DNA of 20,531 nucleotides from a virus, in the IMG/VR virus record IMGVR_UViG_3300017971_000862, positions 1 to 20,531 of that record; one strand, 5' to 3'. Each line of letters starts with the position of its first letter. Positions within the stretch are counted from its first letter, which is position 1. Positions 2,838 to 18,447 of the stretch are shown in pieces. Below the pieces are notes generated by a model, which made no database searches, was not told where the DNA came from, and saw only the letters and a program-made list of their open reading frames with translations. Position numbers and translations under genes: made by a program.

Positions 2838-2873
2838 AAACCCCCCATTTATACCGGTATAAATGGGGGGTTT
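2838..2873 (+). terminator. Perfect 36-bp palindrome, terminator-like, upstream of promoter 1
   Basis: AAACCCCCCATTTATACC is followed at once by its exact reverse complement, with no spacer. As RNA it would fold into a stem of about 16 base pairs with a CCGG loop, followed by a short U-run (TTTTCG). This would end transcription from the methyltransferase operon just before promoter 1. The element is nearly symmetrical, so it could also stop transcripts on the minus strand or act as a protein-binding palindrome. Confidence 0.7.
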
Positions 2874-2876
2874 TCG

Positions 2877-2915
2877 CTTGACTTTATCGCTTGATCTCGG
2901 TATACTGTAGTCAAG
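2877..2915 (+). promoter_or_regulatory. Sigma-70-type promoter 1 within a dyad
   Basis: TTGACT at 2878-2883 and TATACT at 2901-2906 are separated by exactly 17 bases, close to the housekeeping consensus. CTTGACT (2877-2883) and its reverse complement AGTCAAG (2909-2915) flank the core, with centres 32 bases apart, about three helical turns. CGCTTGA also occurs twice in direct orientation (2875-2881 and 2888-2894). The expected start of transcription is near 2913, inside the second arm. The arrangement looks like an operator overlapping a promoter. Confidence 0.85.
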
Positions 2916-2952
2916 ATTGAGCAACTAACCACTAACCAAAAAGGAACCGAAG

Positions 2953-3132
2953 ATGAAAATAAACAACACCGAAACCGACATCAGAATGCTCAGAGCCACC
3001 ATAAAAATGTGGGAGCGAAGATATAAAACAACGCAACCAAAAAACGGAACCGAAGCTCTAAGACTGCTCGAACTAATAGAACGATATACAACTCAATACA
3101 TCGAACTCACAAACGATTTACCAAATTGGTAA
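2953..3132 (+). CDS. Small hypothetical protein of the cassette array, 59 aa
   Basis: First gene behind promoter 1. The start ATG follows AAAAAGGAACCGAAG, the shared ribosome binding site module. The 59-residue product begins MKINNTETDIRMLRATIKMW and ends NDLPNW. It is charged and mainly helical, with no cysteine and no membrane segment. I do not recognise a family. Coding is supported by the precise fit between the promoter cassette upstream and the hairpin cassette ten bases after the stop, which is the same layout as for its neighbours. Confidence 0.75.
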   Translation: MKINNTETDIRMLRATIKMWERRYKTTQPKNGTEALRLLELIERYTTQYIELTNDLPNW

Positions 3133-3141
3133 ACCAACCAA

Positions 3142-3166
3142 CCTGGGGAGCAGCAAGCTCCCCAGG
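3142..3166 (+). other. Intercistronic hairpin 1 (AGCAA loop)
   Basis: CCTGGGGAGC and GCTCCCCAGG form a perfect ten-base-pair stem around an AGCAA loop. No T-tract follows, so it should not terminate. A/C-rich unstructured sequence (ACCAACC type) lies on both sides, then CCACGAAAGGAACCGAAA leads straight into the next start codon at 3190. The same module recurs at 3394, 4043 and 4891. Confidence 0.85.
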
Positions 3167-3189
3167 ACCAACCACGAAAGGAACCGAAA

Positions 3190-3378
3190 ATGAAAACAAA
3201 CAACTGGAACCCAAATAAAAAAGAAACAAAAATCACCACCCGAGAATTAAGAAATTTTTTATTCAATATAGAAAATCAAGATTTGACTGTAAGAGAATTA
3301 AGAAACCTTCTTTTTGAAGTAACAAATCAAGATCACCCAATCGAAGATCCTAACTTTATAAACAACCTGACCAAATAA
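3190..3378 (+). CDS. Small hypothetical protein with an internal 17-residue repeat, 62 aa
   Basis: Starts after the shared module CGAAAGGAACCGAAA. Residues 18-31 (RELRNFLFNIENQD) are repeated at 35-48 (RELRNLLFEVTNQD), a 17-residue period. Each unit looks like one amphipathic helix with a leucine/phenylalanine face. The N-terminus is lysine- and asparagine-rich. The gene is more A+T-rich than most of the window. No known family is recognised. It is the second gene of transcription unit 1, between hairpins 1 and 2. Confidence 0.75.
   Translation: MKTNNWNPNKKETKITTRELRNFLFNIENQDLTVRELRNLLFEVTNQDHPIEDPNFINNLTK
3241..3342 (+). repeat. Two tandem 51-bp units inside the 62-aa gene
   Basis: Units at 3241-3291 and 3292-3342 encode the RELRN(F/L)LF repeats. 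GAGAATTAAGAAA begins each unit and AATCAAGAT occurs in each. The units have diverged between these anchors, so the duplication is not very recent. Confidence 0.7.
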
Positions 3379-3393
3379 CCCACCAACCACCAA

Positions 3394-3418
3394 CCTGGGG
3401 AGCAGCAAGCTCCCCAGG
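3394..3418 (+). other. Intercistronic hairpin 2 (AGCAA loop)
   Basis: Identical stem and loop to hairpin 1 (CCTGGGGAGC, AGCAA, GCTCCCCAGG), again followed by GACCAACCACGAAAGGAACC and the start codon of the next gene, here with CAAACA in place of CGAAA before the ATG. Confidence 0.85.
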
Positions 3419-3442
3419 ACCAACCACGAAAGGAACCAAACA

Positions 3443-3691
3443 ATGATTAAAAAAGGACCCGTCTCTAGACTAACGAAACAAAACGCAATCGCGAAACTCG
3501 AGATCGCAAACAAAAAGATTGCACTCGCAATCATCGCCCTCCAAGAAATCGAAGCCGATCCAGAAATGAACCGCTTCATCGGACCTGATGCCGCCCATTT
3601 TAGATCCGAACTCGAATATATAAATGATCCTAACCCAGAGGAAGCCGGAATCGGAGGATTTATTAAATTATTAAAACAAAGATACTTATAA
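3443..3691 (+). CDS. Small hypothetical helical protein, 82 aa
   Basis: Third gene of transcription unit 1. AAAGGAACC lies six to eight bases before the ATG. The N-terminal half is basic and helical (LTKQNAIAKLEIANKKIALAI), the middle is acidic, and the C-terminus is basic (IKLLKQRYL). No family is recognised and no membrane segment is predicted. A shortened version of the intercistronic hairpin (GGGG, AGCG, CCCC at 3700-3711) follows the stop and leads into promoter cassette 2. Confidence 0.8.
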   Translation: MIKKGPVSRLTKQNAIAKLEIANKKIALAIIALQEIEADPEMNRFIGPDAAHFRSELEYINDPNPEEAGIGGFIKLLKQRYL

Positions 3692-3712
3692 ATCAACCAG
3701 GGGAGCGCCCCG

Positions 3713-3748
3713 AAACCCCCCATTTATACCGGTATAAATGGGGGGTTT
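3713..3748 (+). terminator. Perfect 36-bp palindrome upstream of promoter 2
   Basis: Same palindrome as at 2838, followed by TTTTCG. It would end transcription unit 1 immediately before promoter 2 and so insulate the two units. Confidence 0.7.
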
Positions 3749-3751
3749 TCG

Positions 3752-3790
3752 CTTGACTTTATCGCTTGATCTCGGTATACTGTAGTCAAG
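3752..3790 (+). promoter_or_regulatory. Sigma-70-type promoter 2 within a dyad
   Basis: TTGACT at 3753-3758, a 17-base spacer, TATACT at 3776-3781. It has the same flanking CTTGACT and AGTCAAG arms as promoter 1, and is identical to it throughout this stretch. Confidence 0.85.
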
Positions 3791-3827
3791 ATTGAGCAAC
3801 TAACCACTAACCAAAAAGGAACCGAAA

Positions 3828-4025
3828 ATGAACCCCGAAATTATAGAAACCACCCAAATGCCCTACATAACAGCCAGCGAACTCGAGAACGGCGATGAAG
3901 TATTTATACAAGATGGACGCCTGATGCGCCTCATTCGCAAGATGAACGCCGAAGGCACAACCTGGATCGCCGAAGAGGTAACCGACCTGGATAATTTTGA
4001 TTTAGCCGAATACCTCAACCAGTAG
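3828..4025 (+). CDS. Small acidic hypothetical protein, 65 aa
   Basis: First gene behind promoter 2, with AAAAAGGAACCGAAA before the ATG. The product is strongly acidic. It has a short beta-like segment (GDEVFIQDGRLMRLIRKM) followed by an acidic tail (EEVTDLDNFDLAEYL). The small size and acidity are seen in some phage inhibitors of host proteins and DNA mimics, but nothing here identifies a target. No family is recognised. Confidence 0.78.
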   Translation: MNPEIIETTQMPYITASELENGDEVFIQDGRLMRLIRKMNAEGTTWIAEEVTDLDNFDLAEYLNQ

Positions 4026-4042
4026 AACCCAACCACCAACCA

Positions 4043-4060
4043 GGGGAGCGCAAGCTCCCC
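4043..4060 (+). other. Intercistronic hairpin 3 (GCAA tetraloop)
   Basis: GGGGAGC, loop GCAA, GCTCCCC: a seven-base-pair stem closed by a GNRA-class tetraloop. It is flanked by ACCAACC-type sequence and by CCACGAAAGGAACCGAAA ahead of the start at 4084. No T-tract follows. Confidence 0.85.
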
Positions 4061-4083
4061 ACCGACCACGAAAGGAACCGAAA

Positions 4084-4278
4084 ATGAACACTAGAAAAGA
4101 TAAAGGCAAAGAACTGGCCATCAACCGCATCGCAGAAGAAGTCCTCAACCTTGAAACTTTGGAAACCAGAATGAGCGACAGTTTAGACTTTAGCGATCAG
4201 GCAGTCTGGACACTCAAAGCCGCACTCGAGGCCGCATTCGAAGCCGGACAGAATAACCCAAAAAGAGAAACAACATGA
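4084..4278 (+). CDS. Small hypothetical helical protein, 64 aa
   Basis: Starts directly after hairpin module 3. It is basic at the N-terminus (NTRKDKGKE), then acidic and helical (AEEVLNLETLETRMSDSL, LKAALEAAFEAG). It has no membrane segment or cysteine and was not recognised. Its stop overlaps the start of the next gene by four bases (ATGA), the only gene pair of the array joined by direct overlap instead of a hairpin module. Confidence 0.75.
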   Translation: MNTRKDKGKELAINRIAEEVLNLETLETRMSDSLDFSDQAVWTLKAALEAAFEAGQNNPKRETT

Positions 4279-4484
4279 CAGAAAATATCGCAATCGCCAT
4301 CGAAAGAGAATATAATGATTATAAAAGTTTATCCAAGGTCGATCTCGCAGCCACATGGAAACGATTCAACAGAGTCAGCAGCCTAAAAATCTCAGAAGTA
4401 TCCAAAGATCAACTGATAACCGATATTCTTACTTTCAGATTTGGAAAGGCTAAGATGGACATCTGGCGTGAATATATAAATTAA
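4275..4484 (+). CDS. Small hypothetical protein, 69 aa
   Basis: Overlaps the upstream gene by ATGA and is probably translated by coupling; no shared start-associated sequence precedes it. The product is helical (REYNDYKSLSKVDLAATWKR) with a C-terminal aromatic and basic stretch (FRFGKAKMDIWREYIN). Not recognised. It is the last gene of transcription unit 2, followed by promoter cassette 3. Confidence 0.75.
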   Translation: MTENIAIAIEREYNDYKSLSKVDLAATWKRFNRVSSLKISEVSKDQLITDILTFRFGKAKMDIWREYIN

Positions 4485-4510
4485 TTTTGAACCAAGCCCC
4501 GAGCGCCCCG

Positions 4511-4546
4511 AAACCCCCCATTTATACCGGTATAAATGGGGGGTTT
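4511..4546 (+). terminator. Perfect 36-bp palindrome upstream of promoter 3
   Basis: Same palindrome as copies 1 and 2, followed by TTTCCG. The shorter T-run suggests weaker termination than in the other two copies if it works as an intrinsic terminator. Confidence 0.65.
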
Positions 4547-4549
4547 CCG

Positions 4550-4588
4550 CTTGACTTTATCGCTTGATCTCGGTATACTGTAGTCAAG
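4550..4588 (+). promoter_or_regulatory. Sigma-70-type promoter 3 within a dyad
   Basis: TTGACT at 4551-4556, a 17-base spacer, TATACT at 4574-4579, flanked by CTTGACT and AGTCAAG exactly as in promoters 1 and 2. Confidence 0.85.
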
Positions 4589-4625
4589 ATTGAGCAACTA
4601 ACCACTAACCAAAAAGGAACCGAAA

Positions 4626-4880
4626 ATGAGCCGCAAATTACAAAACATCAAAAACAGAGTGAACCGCCGGAAAGCCAACCAAGAGACAGCCATTGATGCC
4701 TATATTGACCACCTCGAAACCGCCCGAGAAGCCCTGGACCGGATTAACGCTTATATAGCCGATAACGGCGAAGTTGGACCCGAAGACGTAACCTGGGCGC
4801 ATACGGGCAGCATGGCCAGAATAGCCAACGAACTCAAAGAAATCCAAGACCGCATCGATGAGACTGGCGAATACGCATAG
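4626..4880 (+). CDS. Small hypothetical protein with an arginine-rich N-terminus, 84 aa
   Basis: First gene behind promoter 3, with AAAAAGGAACCGAAA before the ATG. The first 18 residues are strongly basic (MSRKLQNIKNRVNRRKANQ); the rest is acidic and helical (IDHLETAREALDRINAYI, IANELKEIQDRIDE) and could form a coiled coil. A short basic N-terminal helix could bind nucleic acid, as in arginine-rich RNA-binding phage proteins, but that is an inference from composition. No family is recognised. Confidence 0.8.
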   Translation: MSRKLQNIKNRVNRRKANQETAIDAYIDHLETAREALDRINAYIADNGEVGPEDVTWAHTGSMARIANELKEIQDRIDETGEYA

Positions 4881-4890
4881 AAACCAACCA

Positions 4891-4908
4891 GGGGAGCGCA
4901 AGCTCCCC
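4891..4908 (+). other. Intercistronic hairpin 4 (GCAA tetraloop)
   Basis: GGGGAGC, GCAA, GCTCCCC, identical to hairpin 3. It is followed by TACCACGAAAGGAACCGAAG and then a second, stronger ribosome binding site (AGGAG) before the start at 4944, so this module carries two ribosome binding sites in a row. Confidence 0.85.
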
Positions 4909-4943
4909 ACCTACCACGAAAGGAACCGAAGAGGAGAATTAAC

Positions 4944-5132
4944 ATGAAAAAAAATACACATGGCGGTCGGCGCAAGGGCGCAGGATTAAAACCAAAGCAC
5001 ACCAACCCAGAAGTGAAAGTCAGAACTAAGAAATTCCGAGCAACCGATGAGTCCTGGAAGCGCTTTCAGCAACTTCTACCCACAGATTCTGAGGAGGCAT
5101 TTGATCTTTTACTTGAACTACTAGATGCCTGA
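4944..5132 (+). CDS. Small basic protein with a GGRRKGAG motif, 62 aa
   Basis: The N-terminus has HGGRRKGAGLKPK, a version of the GGxRxGAGRPK motif common in small phage and plasmid DNA-binding proteins. It is followed by a strand-like segment (VKVRTKKFRATDESW) and a helical acidic C-terminus (SEEAFDLLLELLDA). The overall layout is compatible with a ribbon-helix-helix-type or related DNA-binding protein, but this is not proved. It is the last gene of the plus-strand array and is followed by a strong terminator. It could regulate the promoter dyads, being the most DNA-binding-like gene of the array. Confidence 0.8.
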   Translation: MKKNTHGGRRKGAGLKPKHTNPEVKVRTKKFRATDESWKRFQQLLPTDSEEAFDLLLELLDA

Positions 5133-5163
5133 CGCCGGCAACATAGACAAAACCAACTATACA

Positions 5164-5195
5164 AAAACCGGATCCCGAGCCTGGGATCCGGTTTT
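5164..5195. terminator. Bidirectional intrinsic terminator between converging operons
   Basis: AAAACCGGATCCC and GGGATCCGGTTTT form a perfect 13-base-pair stem with a six-base GAGCCT loop. Reading plus, TTTT ends the stem; reading minus, TTTTT does. It lies 31 bases after the last plus-strand stop and about 150 bases beyond the last minus-strand stop, as expected for a shared terminator at a convergent junction. Confidence 0.9.
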
Positions 5196-5346
5196 ATAGT
5201 AGCAATTCCACTTGCATTTTTTTTGCACCGGCCTCAATGCGCATTGCACCAACCGCTCCCCAGGCATCGCAACTATTGACCAGCCGCCCACCAAGGATCC
5301 CAAAGATTTGTTTCGACTATAGGGACCACAACCAGATCAAAACAGC
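5196..5346. other. Convergent intergenic spacer
   Basis: No gene is seen. A run of eight T at 5217-5224 follows a weak four-base-pair hairpin (GCAA and TTGC) and could be a backup terminator on the plus strand. CAATGCGCATTG at 5235-5246 is a perfect 12-bp palindrome of unknown use. Confidence 0.5.
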
Positions 5347-5991: not shown

Positions 5992-7147
5992 CCAGCACCA
6001 CCTCTCTGGTTGTGATATCAACAATAAAAGCATCTTCAGCACTAGGATCGGACCAATAGACATTAACCGCTTCGATTTTCACGACTCGGTCATCCGGATA
6101 AACCGCCAAAGCCAAATCGCCCGGTTTAAACGTTTTGCGCCCCGCAATCTCAATGGGAGAATAGAACTGGTCCCCCGTTTGGATGATCTCGAATTCTAGC
6201 CTTTCCTGAATTCGCTTATCGGCTAATTTTAAGTTACCCCGATAAACGCGACCGGCTGCTGTTTTTTCTTGACGGGCATCCACAAAAGTCTCGATGTCAT
6301 AATTCAGCGCGTAATCATCACCGAAGACAGTCGAGGTCTCGCGCTGATTGCCGCGCCCTTCCCCTGCAGAAATAGCGACTGATGCCTTAGCACCGGTCCG
6401 AAATAAGCGAGGATTTCGCATGGTATTTTTTTCGAGCGAGAAGACAACCTGATCCGATCCGCTCGATTTATCCACCCCCAACTGGCCAGGGTAAAACTCA
6501 AAAAGCCAATCGTCTCCACCAAGCCAAGTCAGCCCAAAGTCACCCCCCGCCTTATTGATAACTTTCTGGAGCGAGGCCAGAAGCCGCCCCCCCCGAAAGC
6601 TGATCGATGAAATATTACCCGCGCCGTAATCATAGCCAAGCTGAATGTCATAACCCATCCCAGGCAATAAATCACCATTCCGAAGCCGCCCATTCGAAAT
6701 CGAAGCCAGCGCGGTGCAATTATAAGCAACCAGCAATTTAAGAATGGTTTCAGCAGCAACATTCTCAAAAGTTGAGCGGTTCACAGTTCCAGAATACCAC
6801 TCGATCGAGCGCAAATCTAAAATGTGATTGATCCCTGGAGCGGTAAATTCAATAAAGGAAACCCCATTCTCATCCGTTGACAAAACCCAATCGCGCAGGA
6901 TCGCCAGATAGGACCGGACAAAGCCACCCTCCGCACTGGCCAGATTCAAGGATAGATTCCTAATCATAACTTCGATAATATCGAATTCAGCAAAATCAGT
7001 CGCACCATCCGTCTCCACATTCATCGCAAAGACCAACGGCTCTGCCGAATTCACCTCATCGGTATAACGCGCCCAAATAACAGGGACAAAACCCTTCTTC
7101 AGTACCCCCGCTCGATCATAGACTCGCAAATAAAGCTCATATGCCAT
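5981..7147 (-). CDS. Gp37-like tail hub or baseplate protein, 388 aa
   Basis: Resembles the siphovirus ReqiPepy6 Gp37-like family: an N-terminal domain of beta strands (YELYLRVYDRAG, VIWARYTDEVN) binding short turns, a middle segment with ETILKLLVAYN, then a C-terminal region with RRVYRGNLK-type strands and GRKTFKPGDLALAVYPD before a final ITTREVVLD. Genes of this family lie directly downstream of the distal tail protein and are thought to form the tail-tip hub that links the tube to receptor-binding parts. The position here, two genes after Dit, fits. The start at 7147 has no strong ribosome binding site. Family identity comes from recalled patterns. Confidence 0.75.
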   Translation of the reverse strand: MAYELYLRVYDRAGVLKKGFVPVIWARYTDEVNSAEPLVFAMNVETDGATDFAEFDIIEVMIRNLSLNLASAEGGFVRSYLAILRDWVLSTDENGVSFIEFTAPGINHILDLRSIEWYSGTVNRSTFENVAAETILKLLVAYNCTALASISNGRLRNGDLLPGMGYDIQLGYDYGAGNISSISFRGGRLLASLQKVINKAGGDFGLTWLGGDDWLFEFYPGQLGVDKSSGSDQVVFSLEKNTMRNPRLFRTGAKASVAISAGEGRGNQRETSTVFGDDYALNYDIETFVDARQEKTAAGRVYRGNLKLADKRIQERLEFEIIQTGDQFYSPIEIAGRKTFKPGDLALAVYPDDRVVKIEAVNVYWSDPSAEDAFIVDITTREVVLDGS

Positions 7148-7153
7148 GACAGA

Positions 7154-8122
7154 TCAAAAACGGATCGCAATGAACGAAAAACCCAAATCCGTCAAGGATC
7201 CGGCAGATCTGGTCGTTACATCAAAATAATTATTACTCTGAGGATTCCACTGACAATCATAATCACCCGCAATGCCGTTTATAGTAGCAACCACAACCAT
7301 CGCAGAATCGTTTAAATTATGCGTAACGCGAAAACGACCGATCGAAACCCTGGATGAAGACCACCCCGAAGGCAATATAACTGACAATCCGGTATCATCG
7401 ACCTCGCCCGCATAAATACCACTATCAGAATTAAAAACATTGAAAAACGATGCCTTTGCAGGAAGTACCGCATCATCGGCAATTTGAGCAGTATCAACCG
7501 CATCATCGGCAATTTGAGCAGTATCAACCGCATCATCGGCAATTTGAGCAGTATCAACCGCATCATCGGCAATCTTGGAATTCGTAACCGCATCATCGAC
7601 AATTTCTTCAGTATTGACCACCGCGGTCGACCTTCGAAAAACCCGCGTATCCGTAATTGAGATCACACCCCCAGTTGTAATCGTAAAAGTTGCGAGGGAA
7701 ATCTCCCAGGTTGTGCCGAAGGCTTGCACAACCGCAGGAATTGCAGCCACCCCATCTGCGCTGATTTTGTAAGCGATCCGAGTGCGCGCTTCCAAAGCAC
7801 CACCACCGGTCCCCGCCCAATTGGTCTGCAAAACTACCCGCCCCCCCGTTGTACCGATGGCCGGAGTAGAGATGGCAATATTCACCGCGGCATCATTAAA
7901 ATATAAACCATAACAAACCCCTGAACCTGTATCGACCTGGATGGGGGAAGCCACACCGGTCACTTCCAGCTCATTTAAAACACCCTTGGAAATCCCCTCG
8001 AGGGTCGGATCCTGAATCTTGAAATAAGCAGCCAACATATATCTGGCATCGGCCTCACCCAACTCACTCGCCCCATCACCCAAGCCCGCAACGGTCGACC
8101 ACGGCCATGATTTCTCGGTCAT
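7154..8122 (-). CDS. Tail fibre-like protein with ADDAVDTAQI repeats, 322 aa
   Basis: Begins MTEKSWPWSTVAGLGDGA, a type of N-terminus common in phage proteins that attach to the tail tip. A beta-rich region follows, then repeats of ADDAVDTAQI (about residues 168-217), each ten residues, as in the repeat shafts of trimeric fibres. The C-terminal part (VTHNLNDSAMVVVATING and on) looks like a beta-sandwich tip that would contact the host surface. AGGAG lies six bases before the start and overlaps the stop of the distal tail gene. Receptor binding is an inference from position and repeat architecture. Confidence 0.8.
   Translation of the reverse strand: MTEKSWPWSTVAGLGDGASELGEADARYMLAAYFKIQDPTLEGISKGVLNELEVTGVASPIQVDTGSGVCYGLYFNDAAVNIAISTPAIGTTGGRVVLQTNWAGTGGGALEARTRIAYKISADGVAAIPAVVQAFGTTWEISLATFTITTGGVISITDTRVFRRSTAVVNTEEIVDDAVTNSKIADDAVDTAQIADDAVDTAQIADDAVDTAQIADDAVLPAKASFFNVFNSDSGIYAGEVDDTGLSVILPSGWSSSRVSIGRFRVTHNLNDSAMVVVATINGIAGDYDCQWNPQSNNYFDVTTRSAGSLTDLGFSFIAIRF
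7471..7620 (-). repeat. 30-bp tandem repeats encoding the fibre shaft
   Basis: Three exact 30-bp units at 7471-7500, 7501-7530 and 7531-7560, then two degenerate units at 7561-7590 and 7591-7620. Each unit is ten codons, so any change in copy number keeps the frame. The identity of the three central units at nucleotide level indicates recent expansion. Confidence 0.95.
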
Positions 8123-11606: not shown

Positions 11607-11968
11607 GAATCTTCATCCTCGAACTCGGCATCAATCGACTCGTCACCTTTGGCGATAACTTCACCGATCGCTTCGAAGACATTCGAGGCAATGATCGTGA
11701 ATCCATATTTATCTAGAATTTCATAAGCATCATCCATGGTCACTCGTTTACCGCCCGAGCGATGATACCGCCGCGCCGCTTCCATACCAGCCTGCAGCAA
11801 TACCGCCACCTCGAAGATGCCAGAGCCACCATCTTGAAAACCATTCAAAACACCGATGATGCCCTTCTCCATAACGCGCTCCGCATTCGCAATCGCCCGG
11901 TTGGAATAAAGCAGCTCGATCTCGCGGTCCGAAGTGATAATCGTTTTTTGCCCAATTTTATTTACCAT
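11597..11968 (-). CDS. Tail assembly chaperone G-like protein, 123 aa
   Basis: Lies between the tail tube gene and the tape measure, like gpG of lambda. The sequence (REIELLYSNRAIANAERVMEKGI, AVLLQAGMEAARRYH, MDDAYEILDKYG) matches the helical pattern of small tail assembly chaperones in which a tube of helices coats the tape measure. An acidic C-terminus (DAEFEDEDSKN) leads into the frameshift site. Start overlaps the tail tube stop (TAATG), with GAGGTGG about seven bases upstream. Most ribosomes would make this short product and a few the GT fusion. Confidence 0.9.
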   Translation of the reverse strand: MVNKIGQKTIITSDREIELLYSNRAIANAERVMEKGIIGVLNGFQDGGSGIFEVAVLLQAGMEAARRYHRSGGKRVTMDDAYEILDKYGFTIIASNVFEAIGEVIAKGDESIDAEFEDEDSKN

Positions 11969-12369
11969 TACGAACCCACCTCAACCCAGAATCCATCCAG
12001 AGTCAGAGAGATCGAAATGGTACTCTCCGCTTGATCGGGGAAGGTTTCAGAAATAGAGTCAACCTTCGCCGTTGCGGTTTCAACAACTACATCTTCTTCT
12101 TGGCGCGCAATCAAGATTAAATCGCCATTCCGATTAGCATCTCTTAAAGCCAGATAACCAGCATCCGATGAAACATAAACCGCATCCAACGAAACGGTCG
12201 AAGAATACCGACCGGGCTCCACGCGCTGAGCGCGGGAATCTTTACAGGAATTATCGATCGTATCCGAGGTCTCTTCGATGGTCGCATCGCGCTGACAACC
12301 GACCGCCTCATAGGATGGGACCGATGGCGTCCCCGTATTAACCAAAAGTAACAAATCTGCACCGTTCAT
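11968..12369 (-). CDS. Tail tube protein, paralogue 1, 133 aa
   Basis: Major tail protein of the siphovirus tube type. Conserved motifs GCQRDATIEETSDTID, SCKDSRAQRVEPGRYSST and FPDQAESTISISLTLDG are typical of tube subunits that stack in rings. I chose the ATG at 12369 because TTTGGAGG lies five to seven bases upstream and because its paralogue begins at the same residue (MNG). Position directly before the chaperone genes is the usual place for the main tube gene, so this is the more likely principal subunit. About 77 of 126 aligned residues are identical to the second copy, counted by hand. Confidence 0.88.
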   Translation of the reverse strand: MNGADLLLLVNTGTPSVPSYEAVGCQRDATIEETSDTIDNSCKDSRAQRVEPGRYSSTVSLDAVYVSSDAGYLALRDANRNGDLILIARQEEDVVVETATAKVDSISETFPDQAESTISISLTLDGFWVEVGS

Positions 12370-12384
12370 TTCAGCCTCCAAAAA

Positions 12385-12798: not shown

Positions 12799-13169
12799 TT
12801 GCCCTCTAACAAATTAACGATCGCTTTTGCATTGGAAAACACCGCTGGCCTGAGAAACGGATGCGCTGGAGCCGTTGCAGATCCAAGCTCAATATAAAAG
12901 CCATGATGATCGCCGCTCCGAGACTTTCCCACACCCACCAATGTGGTGACTTCATTTTTTCCAACTTCCACCCGATTCATCAGCAGCCGAGCCACCACCT
13001 GCTCACGATAGGCTCGCCCCCACTCAGGATCAGAGATCGACAATAAGCGCTGCCGCGCATCGGCCTCCACAAACTCGCCCACAATCTCAGAATTCGAAAC
13101 TAAATCCTTCACGATTTGAGCCTTAAAATCGGCTGCGTTCCATATCAACACCGGTCGATTACTAACCAA
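12795..13169 (-). CDS. HK97 gp10-like tail completion protein, about 124 aa
   Basis: C-terminal ...GFYIELGSATAPAHPFLRPAVF is the signature of the gp10-like family, which works at the head-tail joint. The start is uncertain: no ATG is available in the right place. TTG at 13169 has GGGAG eight bases upstream and gives an eight-base overlap with the second tail tube gene, so I chose it; TTG at 13193 is a possible longer start. The residues LIWNAADFKAQIVKDL early in the protein match the usual beginning of the family. Confidence 0.8.
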   Translation of the reverse strand: MVSNRPVLIWNAADFKAQIVKDLVSNSEIVGEFVEADARQRLLSISDPEWGRAYREQVVARLLMNRVEVGKNEVTTLVGVGKSRSGDHHGFYIELGSATAPAHPFLRPAVFSNAKAIVNLLEGK

Positions 13170-13599
13170 TGAACACACTCCCAATGACCCCAACGCCGAT
13201 CACCCATAAATTCAGAATTTCTCCATCAACAGTGAAACTCGAAGAAATCACCGATTCAGCCTGATCCGGAAAAGATGCGCTCATAGAGTCAATCTTAGCA
13301 TTAGCCCTTTGAACAATCACCCCATCTTCCTGACGTGCCAGAATAACCATCTCACCATCACGATTCGCATTTTTCAATTTCAGAAAATCCGATCGATTAG
13401 CAACATAAAGAAAATCAAGGGTAACCGTTGAACTGTAACGCCCCGGTTCAACTCGCATCGACCGTGAACTTTTACAAGAGTTGTCGATCGTATCCGAGGC
13501 CTCCTCGAAGGTAGCATCCCGCTGACAACCAACCACCTGATAATCGGGAACCAAAACAGTCCCCAGGTCCAACATTACGAGAAGTAATGAACCATTCAT
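13162..13599 (-). CDS. Tail tube protein, paralogue 2, 145 aa
   Basis: Second copy of the tail tube gene, separated from the first by the gp10-like and terminator genes. It shares GCQRDAT, EASDTIDNSCK, RVEPGRYSSTV and FPDQAES with paralogue 1. It departs only at the end, where the shared DG motif is followed by a hydrophobic tail (ILNLWVIGVGVIGSVFIG) instead of the short FWVEVGS of copy 1. The ATG has AGGTG seven bases upstream. It may form a minor ring at the tail ends or a decoration of the tube, or it may be a decaying duplicate; nothing broken is visible. Confidence 0.85.
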   Translation of the reverse strand: MNGSLLLVMLDLGTVLVPDYQVVGCQRDATFEEASDTIDNSCKSSRSMRVEPGRYSSTVTLDFLYVANRSDFLKLKNANRDGEMVILARQEDGVIVQRANAKIDSMSASFPDQAESVISSSFTVDGEILNLWVIGVGVIGSVFIG

Positions 13600-15694: not shown

Positions 15695-16333
15695 TCATCT
15701 CCTGCGCGAGCCTTGCTCTTGATAATAAGCCAGCACGCGCGCTTCATCGCCAGGATTGCATTTTACAGACCGCCCTGGGGCAATCTCGACTCTTGACATT
15801 TTGCGCTTACCCATTTTGCCAATGCGGGGATGCTTTGCTCGCATTCGAGAAGCATCCATCGCGCGAACATCAGCCGACCATGAAATCGGCAATACACATA
15901 AGAGCGGTTTATTCAAATAATACGCTCGCAAAAACGATAACCGGTCATCACTCCCCCGCGCACGCTCGGTTTCCCAGGTATCCAAAAACTCAACACCGGC
16001 TAAATTCTGCCGAATAAAAAGCATCTCATGGAAAAACAACAACACCCGCAAATCGCGCACAATCCCCTGCGTCAACTCACGCTCGGCTTCCGTACCCACG
16101 TCTGCAGCGATCACGCCATATTTCCACAATGGCACCGCGGCATCCCACCGATCCAGAAAACTCCACGCGGCAGGTAGTAAATCCCAGGGAACCCTGACGC
16201 CGCTTTTCACAATCAAAGTCTTGCTAAAAGGAATCTCATAATCATCTCCGGCTTGATACCCGAGCCTTTGAGATTTTGCCTTCCCTGCGACAGCAGCATC
16301 AGAATCGCCGATCAAGAGAATGCCCTGCTTCAT
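15695..16333 (-). CDS. Unrecognised protein coupled to the sugar-modification genes, 212 aa
   Basis: Not recognised. It is well supported as coding: GGAGG lies seven bases before the ATG, and it overlaps the methyltransferase upstream by four bases. The protein has a start IL(L)IGDSDAAVAGKA, a central WDLLPAAWSFLDRWDAAVPLWKYG, helical RDLRVLLFFHEMLFIRQNLAGVEFLDTW and a basic C-terminal tail (KMGKRKMSRVEIAPGRSVKC). It may be an accessory or a divergent transferase of the cassette. No metal, nucleotide-binding or membrane motif is obvious. Confidence 0.78.
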   Translation of the reverse strand: MKQGILLIGDSDAAVAGKAKSQRLGYQAGDDYEIPFSKTLIVKSGVRVPWDLLPAAWSFLDRWDAAVPLWKYGVIAADVGTEAERELTQGIVRDLRVLLFFHEMLFIRQNLAGVEFLDTWETERARGSDDRLSFLRAYYLNKPLLCVLPISWSADVRAMDASRMRAKHPRIGKMGKRKMSRVEIAPGRSVKCNPGDEARVLAYYQEQGSRRR

Positions 16334-16785
16334 TTACGGACCTCCAGAGTGCAATGGATTGAGGATTTAGCATCGTTCAAACTTGGCCCCTTGACAACTT
16401 TCCACTTGCGGTCCGTATAAAAATTGTATTGCTTGCCATAGGGCAACTCAGGATCAAAAACGGTTGGGGTTTCCAGCGCCGCAAACCAACGATGAGTGGG
16501 GTCCATATACGAATTATTATGCTTCCAATAGGGCAACTTCAAAACCAAACGACCGCCCGGTTTCACAATTCGCCAGATCTCATTCACAGAGGCAATCAAA
16601 TCGATATCCAGATGCTCGAGGACCGCCCGAGCATTGACCAAATCAAACCGCTCATCTTCCCATGGCCATGGCAAAACACTGAGATCCCAAACCACATCGA
16701 TCTCAGGCCGATGCTTAATACGATCATGATTCACCGCCCCAGGGATCAAACGATTACCACATCCGAGATTTATGATTTTTTTCAT
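16330..16785 (-). CDS. SAM-dependent methyltransferase, class I, 151 aa
   Basis: Short methyltransferase with the glycine-rich SAM site INLGCGNRL at 5-13, an acidic residue region, FDLVNARAVLEHLD at 48-60 and the post-motif KPGGRLVLKLPYW at 75-87. This is the Methyltransf_11 pattern, used for small molecules or sugars. Size is at the short end for the family and only the core fold is present. It lies between the GT8-like glycosyltransferase and an unknown protein, so it may methylate a sugar put on a virion or host surface component. The ribosome binding site is weak. Confidence 0.88.
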   Translation of the reverse strand: MKKIINLGCGNRLIPGAVNHDRIKHRPEIDVVWDLSVLPWPWEDERFDLVNARAVLEHLDIDLIASVNEIWRIVKPGGRLVLKLPYWKHNNSYMDPTHRWFAALETPTVFDPELPYGKQYNFYTDRKWKVVKGPSLNDAKSSIHCTLEVRK

Positions 16786-16828
16786 TTTTTATCCAATACA
16801 GCTCGCATAGACAAATATGACTATATGA

Positions 16829-17575
16829 TCACCGCGCTCTGCGGTTCCGGCTTTCAAAGACATCGACCGCGGCCCAAGCCGCCTTAGAATCAATGCGCCC
16901 TGGGATCATCCCCCGCCAACGCCTTGCCTTACCAGGATAATGCATGATCGCAGCCGGATCGATACCAGCCGAATATTTCTCAAAACAATTCCACTCATTG
17001 CCCAACAAATAGATACGCAATGGATCTTGATACATTGCACGTATCAAAGCGCCCTGGTCCCGTTGCGCATGCCGCTCCCACTCAATTAGCCAGCGATCGA
17101 AAAAATCCTGCACGCGCGCACTCCGACCGAAAGCCCAAACGCCACCGTTAAATTGTAACGTATGCAGTGTACAAAGCTCGGCCTCGATGGATTGCAACTC
17201 GATTAAATTATTACGCCGCCGAAACGAGTGCATTGTATCCATTAGATGCGGATCCTTACAAATCACGAACTCCCATCCATCTTCAATCAGCTCAAAATAG
17301 AACCGCAAATCCGATGAAATCACTTCGGTGTCAGCATCCAGATATAAAACCGCTTCCCAATCTGGGGGAGTCAGAGCATAAGCCGATAATTTAGCCCGCC
17401 GCGCCCCCACATCCGAATCCGGCTGCTCGATAAAATGATCTTCCGAACTGAGCGGTTCAGAACCACAAAATGCGATCGGGATCTCAGGCACAAATTCCCT
17501 GAGAGTTGCCAGTAAATCAAGCGCGCATTTTCTGGCCGGATCGCCGAACGCTACACAATAAATGCCACGTTTCAT
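16829..17575 (-). CDS. Glycosyltransferase, GT8-like (GT-A fold), 248 aa
   Basis: Pattern VLYLDADTEVIS with DxD metal site at D80-D82, NGGVWAFG at 143-150, RDQGALI at 172-178, NCFEKYS and MHYPGKARRW at 211-220 match GT8-type retaining enzymes. The start at 17575 begins MKRGIYCVAFG, overlaps the GT4-like gene by four bases (ATGA), and replaces a longer frame that runs into that gene. It transfers a sugar from a nucleotide donor to an unidentified acceptor. Donor and acceptor cannot be read from the sequence. The gap 16786-16828 before the methyltransferase is the widest in the cassette and shows no promoter. Confidence 0.85.
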   Translation of the reverse strand: MKRGIYCVAFGDPARKCALDLLATLREFVPEIPIAFCGSEPLSSEDHFIEQPDSDVGARRAKLSAYALTPPDWEAVLYLDADTEVISSDLRFYFELIEDGWEFVICKDPHLMDTMHSFRRRNNLIELQSIEAELCTLHTLQFNGGVWAFGRSARVQDFFDRWLIEWERHAQRDQGALIRAMYQDPLRIYLLGNEWNCFEKYSAGIDPAAIMHYPGKARRWRGMIPGRIDSKAAWAAVDVFESRNRRAR

Positions 17576-18447
17576 GAAACCAGCTCCTCGAAGGCAGACC
17601 GATGCTGATCGCACCAAGTAAAAATCGAATAAGGGATCGTCACATCGCGCAAAACCTGCCGATCAACGCTCGAACGCAACTCGAGCGCAGCCTTCAATGC
17701 CGCTTTGAGAGATTTATAATTCCCTTTCTTATAACGATGGATACCAACCACATCGGGCAATTCATCCAATAAACCGACCCCACGCGGGATGACTACCGAA
17801 ACACCACACGCCAACGCCTCGAGCGGAGGCATAGGAACCCCCTCGACAGTCGCAGTAATAACCAGAACATCCAAGGATTGATAAAACGCAGGCATCTCAG
17901 CCCACGGATATCGCACCGTTTTAACTGGCCATCCTCGCCCTGAAGCCTTCCAGGTAACCGCGCTCCCCAGTTTAGCCTTAACTAACTTCTGCGCCAAATT
18001 CTCACCCTTGCGCTGATTTGAATAAGTATAGCCAGAAAAACCAATTACCAAGCGCTGATTTTTATCTCTCGCCGGAATTACAAACCGATGCCGCTCAACT
18101 GGAGGATTAACCTGGACCGTATCGCCAAATTGCATCAATTCGCGGGCATACATTCCCGCGGTCGCAATTCGAAGATCTGCCTTGGCAGCCACGGCATCAA
18201 ATAGTTCTGATTTAGCATTCCCTGGGGGATCGATCTCTCGATGGGTGAAATAGGCAGCCAATGCACCTGGAACCGGATTCTTGCTCATTTGTATCTCGAA
18301 ATAACCTGACAAATAATAGACCTGCGCCCCTGGAACTGGACGCGGGGAGACTTGCCACCCGAGAAAATCGGAGAGATATCGAGAGAACCGCGGGATCACG
18401 CGGTCCTCCCGATAATTTCTGCAAACGACATTGACATCCAAAAGCAT
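17572..18447 (-). CDS. Glycosyltransferase, GT4-like (GT-B fold), 291 aa
   Basis: The C-terminal half has the GT4 signature: a Rossmann start LVIGFSGYTYSNQRKGENL, then YPWAEMPAFYQSLDVLVITATVEGVPMPPLEALACGVSVVIPRGVG with the EX7E pair E202 and E210 that binds donor nucleotide sugar. Length is below the usual 350 or more because the N-terminal half is short. Start overlaps the capsid stop by one base (TAATG) with no strong ribosome binding site, so it relies on coupling with the very highly expressed capsid gene. Target unknown; a virion protein is a plausible acceptor. Confidence 0.88.
   Translation of the reverse strand: MLLDVNVVCRNYREDRVIPRFSRYLSDFLGWQVSPRPVPGAQVYYLSGYFEIQMSKNPVPGALAAYFTHREIDPPGNAKSELFDAVAAKADLRIATAGMYARELMQFGDTVQVNPPVERHRFVIPARDKNQRLVIGFSGYTYSNQRKGENLAQKLVKAKLGSAVTWKASGRGWPVKTVRYPWAEMPAFYQSLDVLVITATVEGVPMPPLEALACGVSVVIPRGVGLLDELPDVVGIHRYKKGNYKSLKAALKAALELRSSVDRQVLRDVTIPYSIFTWCDQHRSAFEELVS

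Follow-up and report, generated by a model that had tools for sequence, protein, structure and literature searches.

The window (the whole stretch of DNA that was analysed, a 20.5-kb fragment of a metagenomic virus record) carries an array of eight small + strand genes, encoding proteins of 59-84 aa and arranged as three operons of 3, 3 and 2 genes, with a D12-class adenine methylase gene, recognised by family search, directly 5' of it. The order is cassette 1, gene A, a type A hairpin-leader module, gene B, a second type A module and gene C; cassette 2, gene D, a type B module and the overlapping genes E and F; cassette 3, gene G, another type B module and gene H; and then an end hairpin. Family matches are not significant for genes A (2953..3132, 59 aa), B (3190..3378, 62 aa, GC 28.6%) and D (3828..4025, 65 aa), and none is found for gene C (3443..3691, 82 aa). 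Gene E (4084..4278, 64 aa) matches DUF6900 (PF21841, E 4e-21), and gene G (4626..4880, 84 aa) matches phrog_14596 (E 7e-14), a family with no function assigned. Gene F (4275..4484, 69 aa) has a start that overlaps the gene E stop, and is the sole array gene without the leader common to the others. Gene H (4944..5132, 62 aa) gave no match in family searches, DNA-binding families included; its structural model (pLDDT 66, helices at 35-44 and 50-61) suggests with low confidence a strand-helix-helix protein with the look of a ribbon-helix-helix fold. After gene H, a terminator-like hairpin found by folding (5164..5198, its stem flanked by an A-run and a U-run) closes the array and separates it from convergent - strand tail genes. 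The original prediction held the genes between the repeats to be unrelated; there are indeed no close paralogues, but genes A and H do resemble each other weakly, at 35% identity along 45 aa (E 0.002).

Each operon opens with a + strand cassette. Cassette 1 lies at 2838..2955 (palindrome 2838-2873, TTGACT 2878-2883, TATACT 2901-2906, leader, AAAGGA, ATG at 2953), cassette 2 at 3713..3830 (palindrome 3713-3748, TTGACT at 3753, TATACT 3776-3781, leader, ATG at 3828), and cassette 3 at 4511..4628 (palindrome 4511-4546, TTGACT at 4551, TATACT 4574-4579, leader, ATG at 4626). The three near-identical 118-bp units of the original prediction are real, each spanning 118 nt with palindrome and ATG included, and the few differences noticed between them come down to two variable positions, 37 (T, T and C in copies 1, 2 and 3) and 115 (G, A and A), an identity well beyond chance. 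The other predicted parts are also present in every copy: the perfect 36-bp palindrome, AAACCCCCCATTTATACCGGTATAAATGGGGGGTTT (38 bp in copy 3), the TTGACT-17-TATACT promoter returned by a promoter scan, a leader that folding predicts to be unstructured between promoter and ribosome site, and the ribosome-binding site AAAGGA with the unit ending at ATG. The next longest palindrome anywhere in the window is 12 bp. The cassette palindrome folds into a hairpin of -23.8 kcal/mol, a value equalled or bettered in 0 of 200 shuffles, and 4 nt separate its end from TTGACT in all copies. The promoter hexamers match the sigma-70 pattern (TTGACA-16/18-TATAAT-like) at 10 of 12 positions; since the scan overall lists 24 sites in the window vs 23.4 in shuffles, repetition rather than the hexamer match is the argument for a promoter.

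Inside the operons, genes are separated by a second tier of repeats, which the original inventory, correct as to the three cassettes, had missed. These four hairpin-leader modules, all on the + strand, have a GC-rich stem of 7-10 bp, no U-run and no promoter, and then the common leader end. The first copy of type A (3137..3192) precedes gene B and reads CCTGGGGAGC-AGCAA-GCTCCCCAGG followed by ACCAACCACGAAAGGAACCGAAAATG (-22.7 kcal/mol, z -5.7); copy 2 (3389..3445) precedes gene C and matches it at 98%. Type B has a hairpin with a GCAA loop. Its first copy (4035..4086) precedes gene E and reads GGGGAGC-GCAA-GCTCCCC followed by the leader; copy 2 (4883..4946) precedes gene H and matches it at 94%. 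The leader consensus over all seven units (three cassettes and four modules) is ACCAACCACGAAAGGAACCGAAAATG, and because the modules repeat the leader end of the cassettes, 7/8 of the small genes start from it. The window has AAAGGAAC at 7 places, each just 5' of an array gene, and at none on the other strand; the ribosome sites of the structural (head and tail) genes are different. All seven leaders have an upstream hairpin, with a promoter additionally at three. Every unit had been thought self-contained, and the part order does fit an insulated, restartable cassette, but each cassette serves an operon of 2-3 genes.

Several features of the array may be traces of a modular history. The GC content of its genes spans 28.6 to 51%, and the relatives of gene E are mainly in Streptococcus phages, those of gene G in proteobacterial phages. 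Sequence comparison finds a 15-nt remnant of the type B hairpin, CAACCAGGGGAGCGC (3694..3712, + strand), joined to cassette 2 at its 5' edge. It also finds an upstream edge common to cassettes 2 and 3, GAGCGCCCCG (4501..4510, + strand), which lengthens their repeat by 10 nt. Gene H, after type B copy 2, has an extra Shine-Dalgarno of its own, GAGGAG, as might result from the insertion behind the module of a gene that already had a ribosome site. This second Shine-Dalgarno and the remnant at cassette 2 look like recombination joints; together with the GC spread they would be footprints of exchange, short of proof.

The virus is, by its gene matches, a siphovirus-like genome fragment: family searches of the window find a siphovirus-like tape measure, an HK97-type major capsid protein and a protease. 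The closest isolates by capsid are actinobacteriophages (~51%), and the nearest cellular matches are a contig of an Anaerolineales MAG (56%) and a prophage in another Anaerolineales genome, here G231 (G231:C223:17332-37621; L042, L043). Eleven window proteins match one gene block of G231 in essentially the same order, beside an integrase-like gene, with a gene order like that of the window's head and tail genes. The block also adjoins host genes that we take, from reading their translations, to be rpoC, gyrA, metG, uvrC and mutL. Given the block order, the integrase-like gene and the host-gene neighbours, a host from Anaerolineales (Chloroflexota) and a partly temperate lineage are likely, though not certain. 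The large terminase ORF of the G231 prophage has an apparent intein-like insert.

We interpret the locus, with a probability of roughly 0.7, as an accessory and probably early array built from terminator-promoter-RBS cassettes and hairpin-leader modules, whose repeats allow gene exchange. The anatomy, the repeat identities, the folds, the common leader and the link to a host lineage are observed directly. From the sequence we infer that the promoters and terminators are active, when the genes are expressed, what the short hairpins do, and that the repeats recombine. The palindrome, once in RNA, would stop transcription arriving from the preceding gene, a host sigma-70-type RNA polymerase would restart at TTGACT-17-TATACT, and the unstructured leader would offer AAAGGA to the ribosome. 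Within an operon, the hairpin-leader modules would divide the cistrons and give each its own copy of the common ribosome site, while their short hairpins would act on the mRNA between cistrons, perhaps in stabilising or processing it. Recombination between repeats could then lead to small genes being gained, lost, exchanged or duplicated with expression retained, since one and the same sequence leads into the start codon of almost all of them. Termination is the least certain of these steps because only a few U residues follow the stem (UUUU, and in copy 3 UUUC). A consensus terminator scan does not list the palindromes on the + strand, its stem counting absorbing A-U pairs.

The 36-bp palindrome might instead be mainly an operator, through which a dimeric host or phage protein (e.g. 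that of gene H) co-regulates the three promoters, termination being secondary or absent. Such a role would suit the perfect symmetry retained in all copies at a site near upstream of the -35 box, and the ribbon-helix-helix look of the modelled gene H protein. It would also suit a 7-bp inverted repeat, CTTGACT/AGTCAAG, that spans the promoter at 2877-2915 and at the equivalent place in copies 2 and 3, a possible candidate operator that could equally have arisen by chance. The palindrome nevertheless has the A-run, GC stem, U-run order and the energy of the hairpin that closes the array, and it follows a stop codon by 21-48 nt, a usual position for a terminator. Gene H, for its part, has a low-confidence model and no DNA-binding family match. 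We consider a mainly operator function unlikely, though it is the leading alternative, and note that the operator and terminator roles are compatible. Similarly doubtful is an elaborated form of the array reading, a two-tier regulatory grammar for a gene array open to acquisition, in which a cassette would open each operon and a promoterless hairpin-leader module would serve every later cistron, the repeats being homogenised by gene conversion and possibly co-controlled by a gene H ribbon-helix-helix protein binding the palindrome.

Gene exchange is a hypothesis, and the high identity of the copies could also reflect recent duplication only. A tandem duplication of the promoter neighbourhood, with the genes then diverged or replaced and with neither a functional module nor selection, would account for near-identity that extends over spacer and leader positions expected to be free to vary, for the weak A-H match, and for the 10 nt more that the flanks of copies 2 and 3 have in common. 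We think it rather improbable, since the repeat ends at functional borders (the palindrome and the ATG) although the genes are unrelated, and since the short modules independently repeat the same leader end. Least probable by far is an assembly artefact in which mis-joining at the repeat made the three copies or their order: the window is a metagenomic fragment with exact repeats near the short-read limit, but the longest exact stretch common to two copies, 114 nt, is shorter than a typical read of 150 bases, so that mis-joining is possible without being required, while assembly normally collapses repeats instead of multiplying them, each copy has private differences at positions 37/115 and distinct flanks, and the short modules are arranged in the same way although their sequence differs.

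The original prediction pointed to phage and metagenome genomes as the place to look for further copies, but searches of phage, plasmid and viral-contig collections found no relative with the cassette. Most of these searches require near-exact matches, and the absence of the cassette elsewhere is therefore weak evidence. Exact and degenerate patterns for promoter, leader and hairpin-leader found no second cassette in viral contigs, one hairpin-leader pattern run over 84,980 genomes gave 0 matches, and the cassette had short chance-level matches only in 400 Anaerolineales genomes. With no relative found to carry it, we continue to infer the mobility and function of the cassette. The leader pattern had 79 matches; most of these, and L018, are single ordinary gene starts or gene-internal. 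Just upstream of 5/58 distinct leader-pattern sites there is a stem of 9 bp or more, vs 2.4% of other RBS-preceded starts, an excess that is suggestive only. We reject the view that host genes commonly start with this leader: it has 6 sites in 400 genomes vs 4 for a reversed control, all at ordinary genes. The Dam gene and one tail gene have no relatives in the viral contigs, and genes E and G are absent from the 380 Anaerolineales genomes searched. An Rfam search gave one snoRNA match, attributable to chance, and a PADLOC search detected nothing.

The nearest precedent is the PeSL of T4-type phages, described, as cited in PMC4503421, as promoter-terminator composites with proposed gene shuffling (Arbiol 2010, 10.1093/gbe/evq006; Comeau 2014, 10.1093/gbe/evu129). 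As characterised there, PeSLs resemble the present cassettes in placing a stem-loop terminator, then a promoter and a ribosome site, before small accessory genes. T4 itself has a PeSL-like site with the same part order and the promoter GTTTAC...TATACAA, which we located ahead of mobD.5 at about position 58,780 of its record. T4 is a myovirus with an early promoter type (GTTTAC...TATAAT-like), whereas the window has a plain TTGACT-17-TATACT, an HK97-type capsid and a siphovirus-like tape measure. There is no sequence similarity between the two, and here the copies are near identical right up to the ATG and are joined by a promoterless hairpin-leader tier.

The original prediction named not PeSLs but the start-associated repeats of Cluster K mycobacteriophages, a likeness that is apt, and closer than it knew given the hairpin-leader modules it had missed. 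The Cluster K SAS is a 13-bp sequence, GGGATAGGAGCCC, tied to start codons, and the ESAS are imperfect 17 bp repeats overlapping putative SigA-like promoters, at non-structural genes only (PMC3203893; PMC11373665). What the two systems share is a repeated element at start codons, preceded at some of the genes by an inverted repeat, and confinement to non-structural genes. Unlike the Cluster K elements, however, the present array has ACCAACCACGAAAGGAACCGAAAATG as its leader, the 13-bp SAS being absent, and a perfect 36-bp palindrome placed upstream of the promoter. By sequence, host and promoter type, the array belongs neither to T4 PeSL nor to Cluster K SAS/ESAS. In the haloarchaeal virus HGTV-1, most genes of one arm follow a conserved motif of TATA-box/promoter-like sequence and inverted repeat, which its authors likened to PeSLs (PMC3950731). 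HGTV-1 is an archaeal virus with an archaeal promoter, and its motif has no sequence relation to the array. Morons of tailed phages are small genes inserted singly with their own promoter and terminator, the signals being unrelated from one to the next, whereas here identical signals are reused serially.

A viral contig (L104) has two identical 35-bp units, GGTATACACTGGTATTACCAACCAAGAAAGGAACC, at 5118-5152 and 6705-6739, before two small genes that flank its capsid gene. Like the array units, these place a -10-like box and a leader, ACCAAGAAAGGAACC, with a similar ribosome site before small genes; unlike them, they lack a terminator palindrome, and the virus is unrelated. Such duplicates make it probable that reuse of start-linked units is more widespread. 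The array suggests that tiny accessory genes are served by reusable terminator-promoter-RBS cassettes not only in T4-like phages but also in an Anaerolineales virus lineage with almost no isolates. Its near-identical copies make cassette-driven gene exchange testable by strain comparison, and the cassette may offer a phylum in which genetic tools are scarce a compact, naturally occurring expression part that is insulated.

Other features of the window lie outside the array. The protein encoded at 864-1361 has weak similarity to the AP2 domain, which also occurs in some phage homing endonucleases; the match, at E 1e-5, falls below the curated cut-off. Within the tail gene 7154-8122, a 30-nt tandem repeat (7458-7589) encodes repeated ADDAVDTAQI motifs. 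The genes at 11968-12381 and 13162-13599, with two genes between them, are 71% identical as DNA along 163 nt and encode paralogous proteins of the tail region; G231 likewise has two copies of such a protein, there adjacent. Amid the head genes, methyltransferase-like and glycosyltransferase-like genes occupy 16330-18447 on the - strand, and relatives at ~60% identity occur in another locus (L020), also after the capsid gene.
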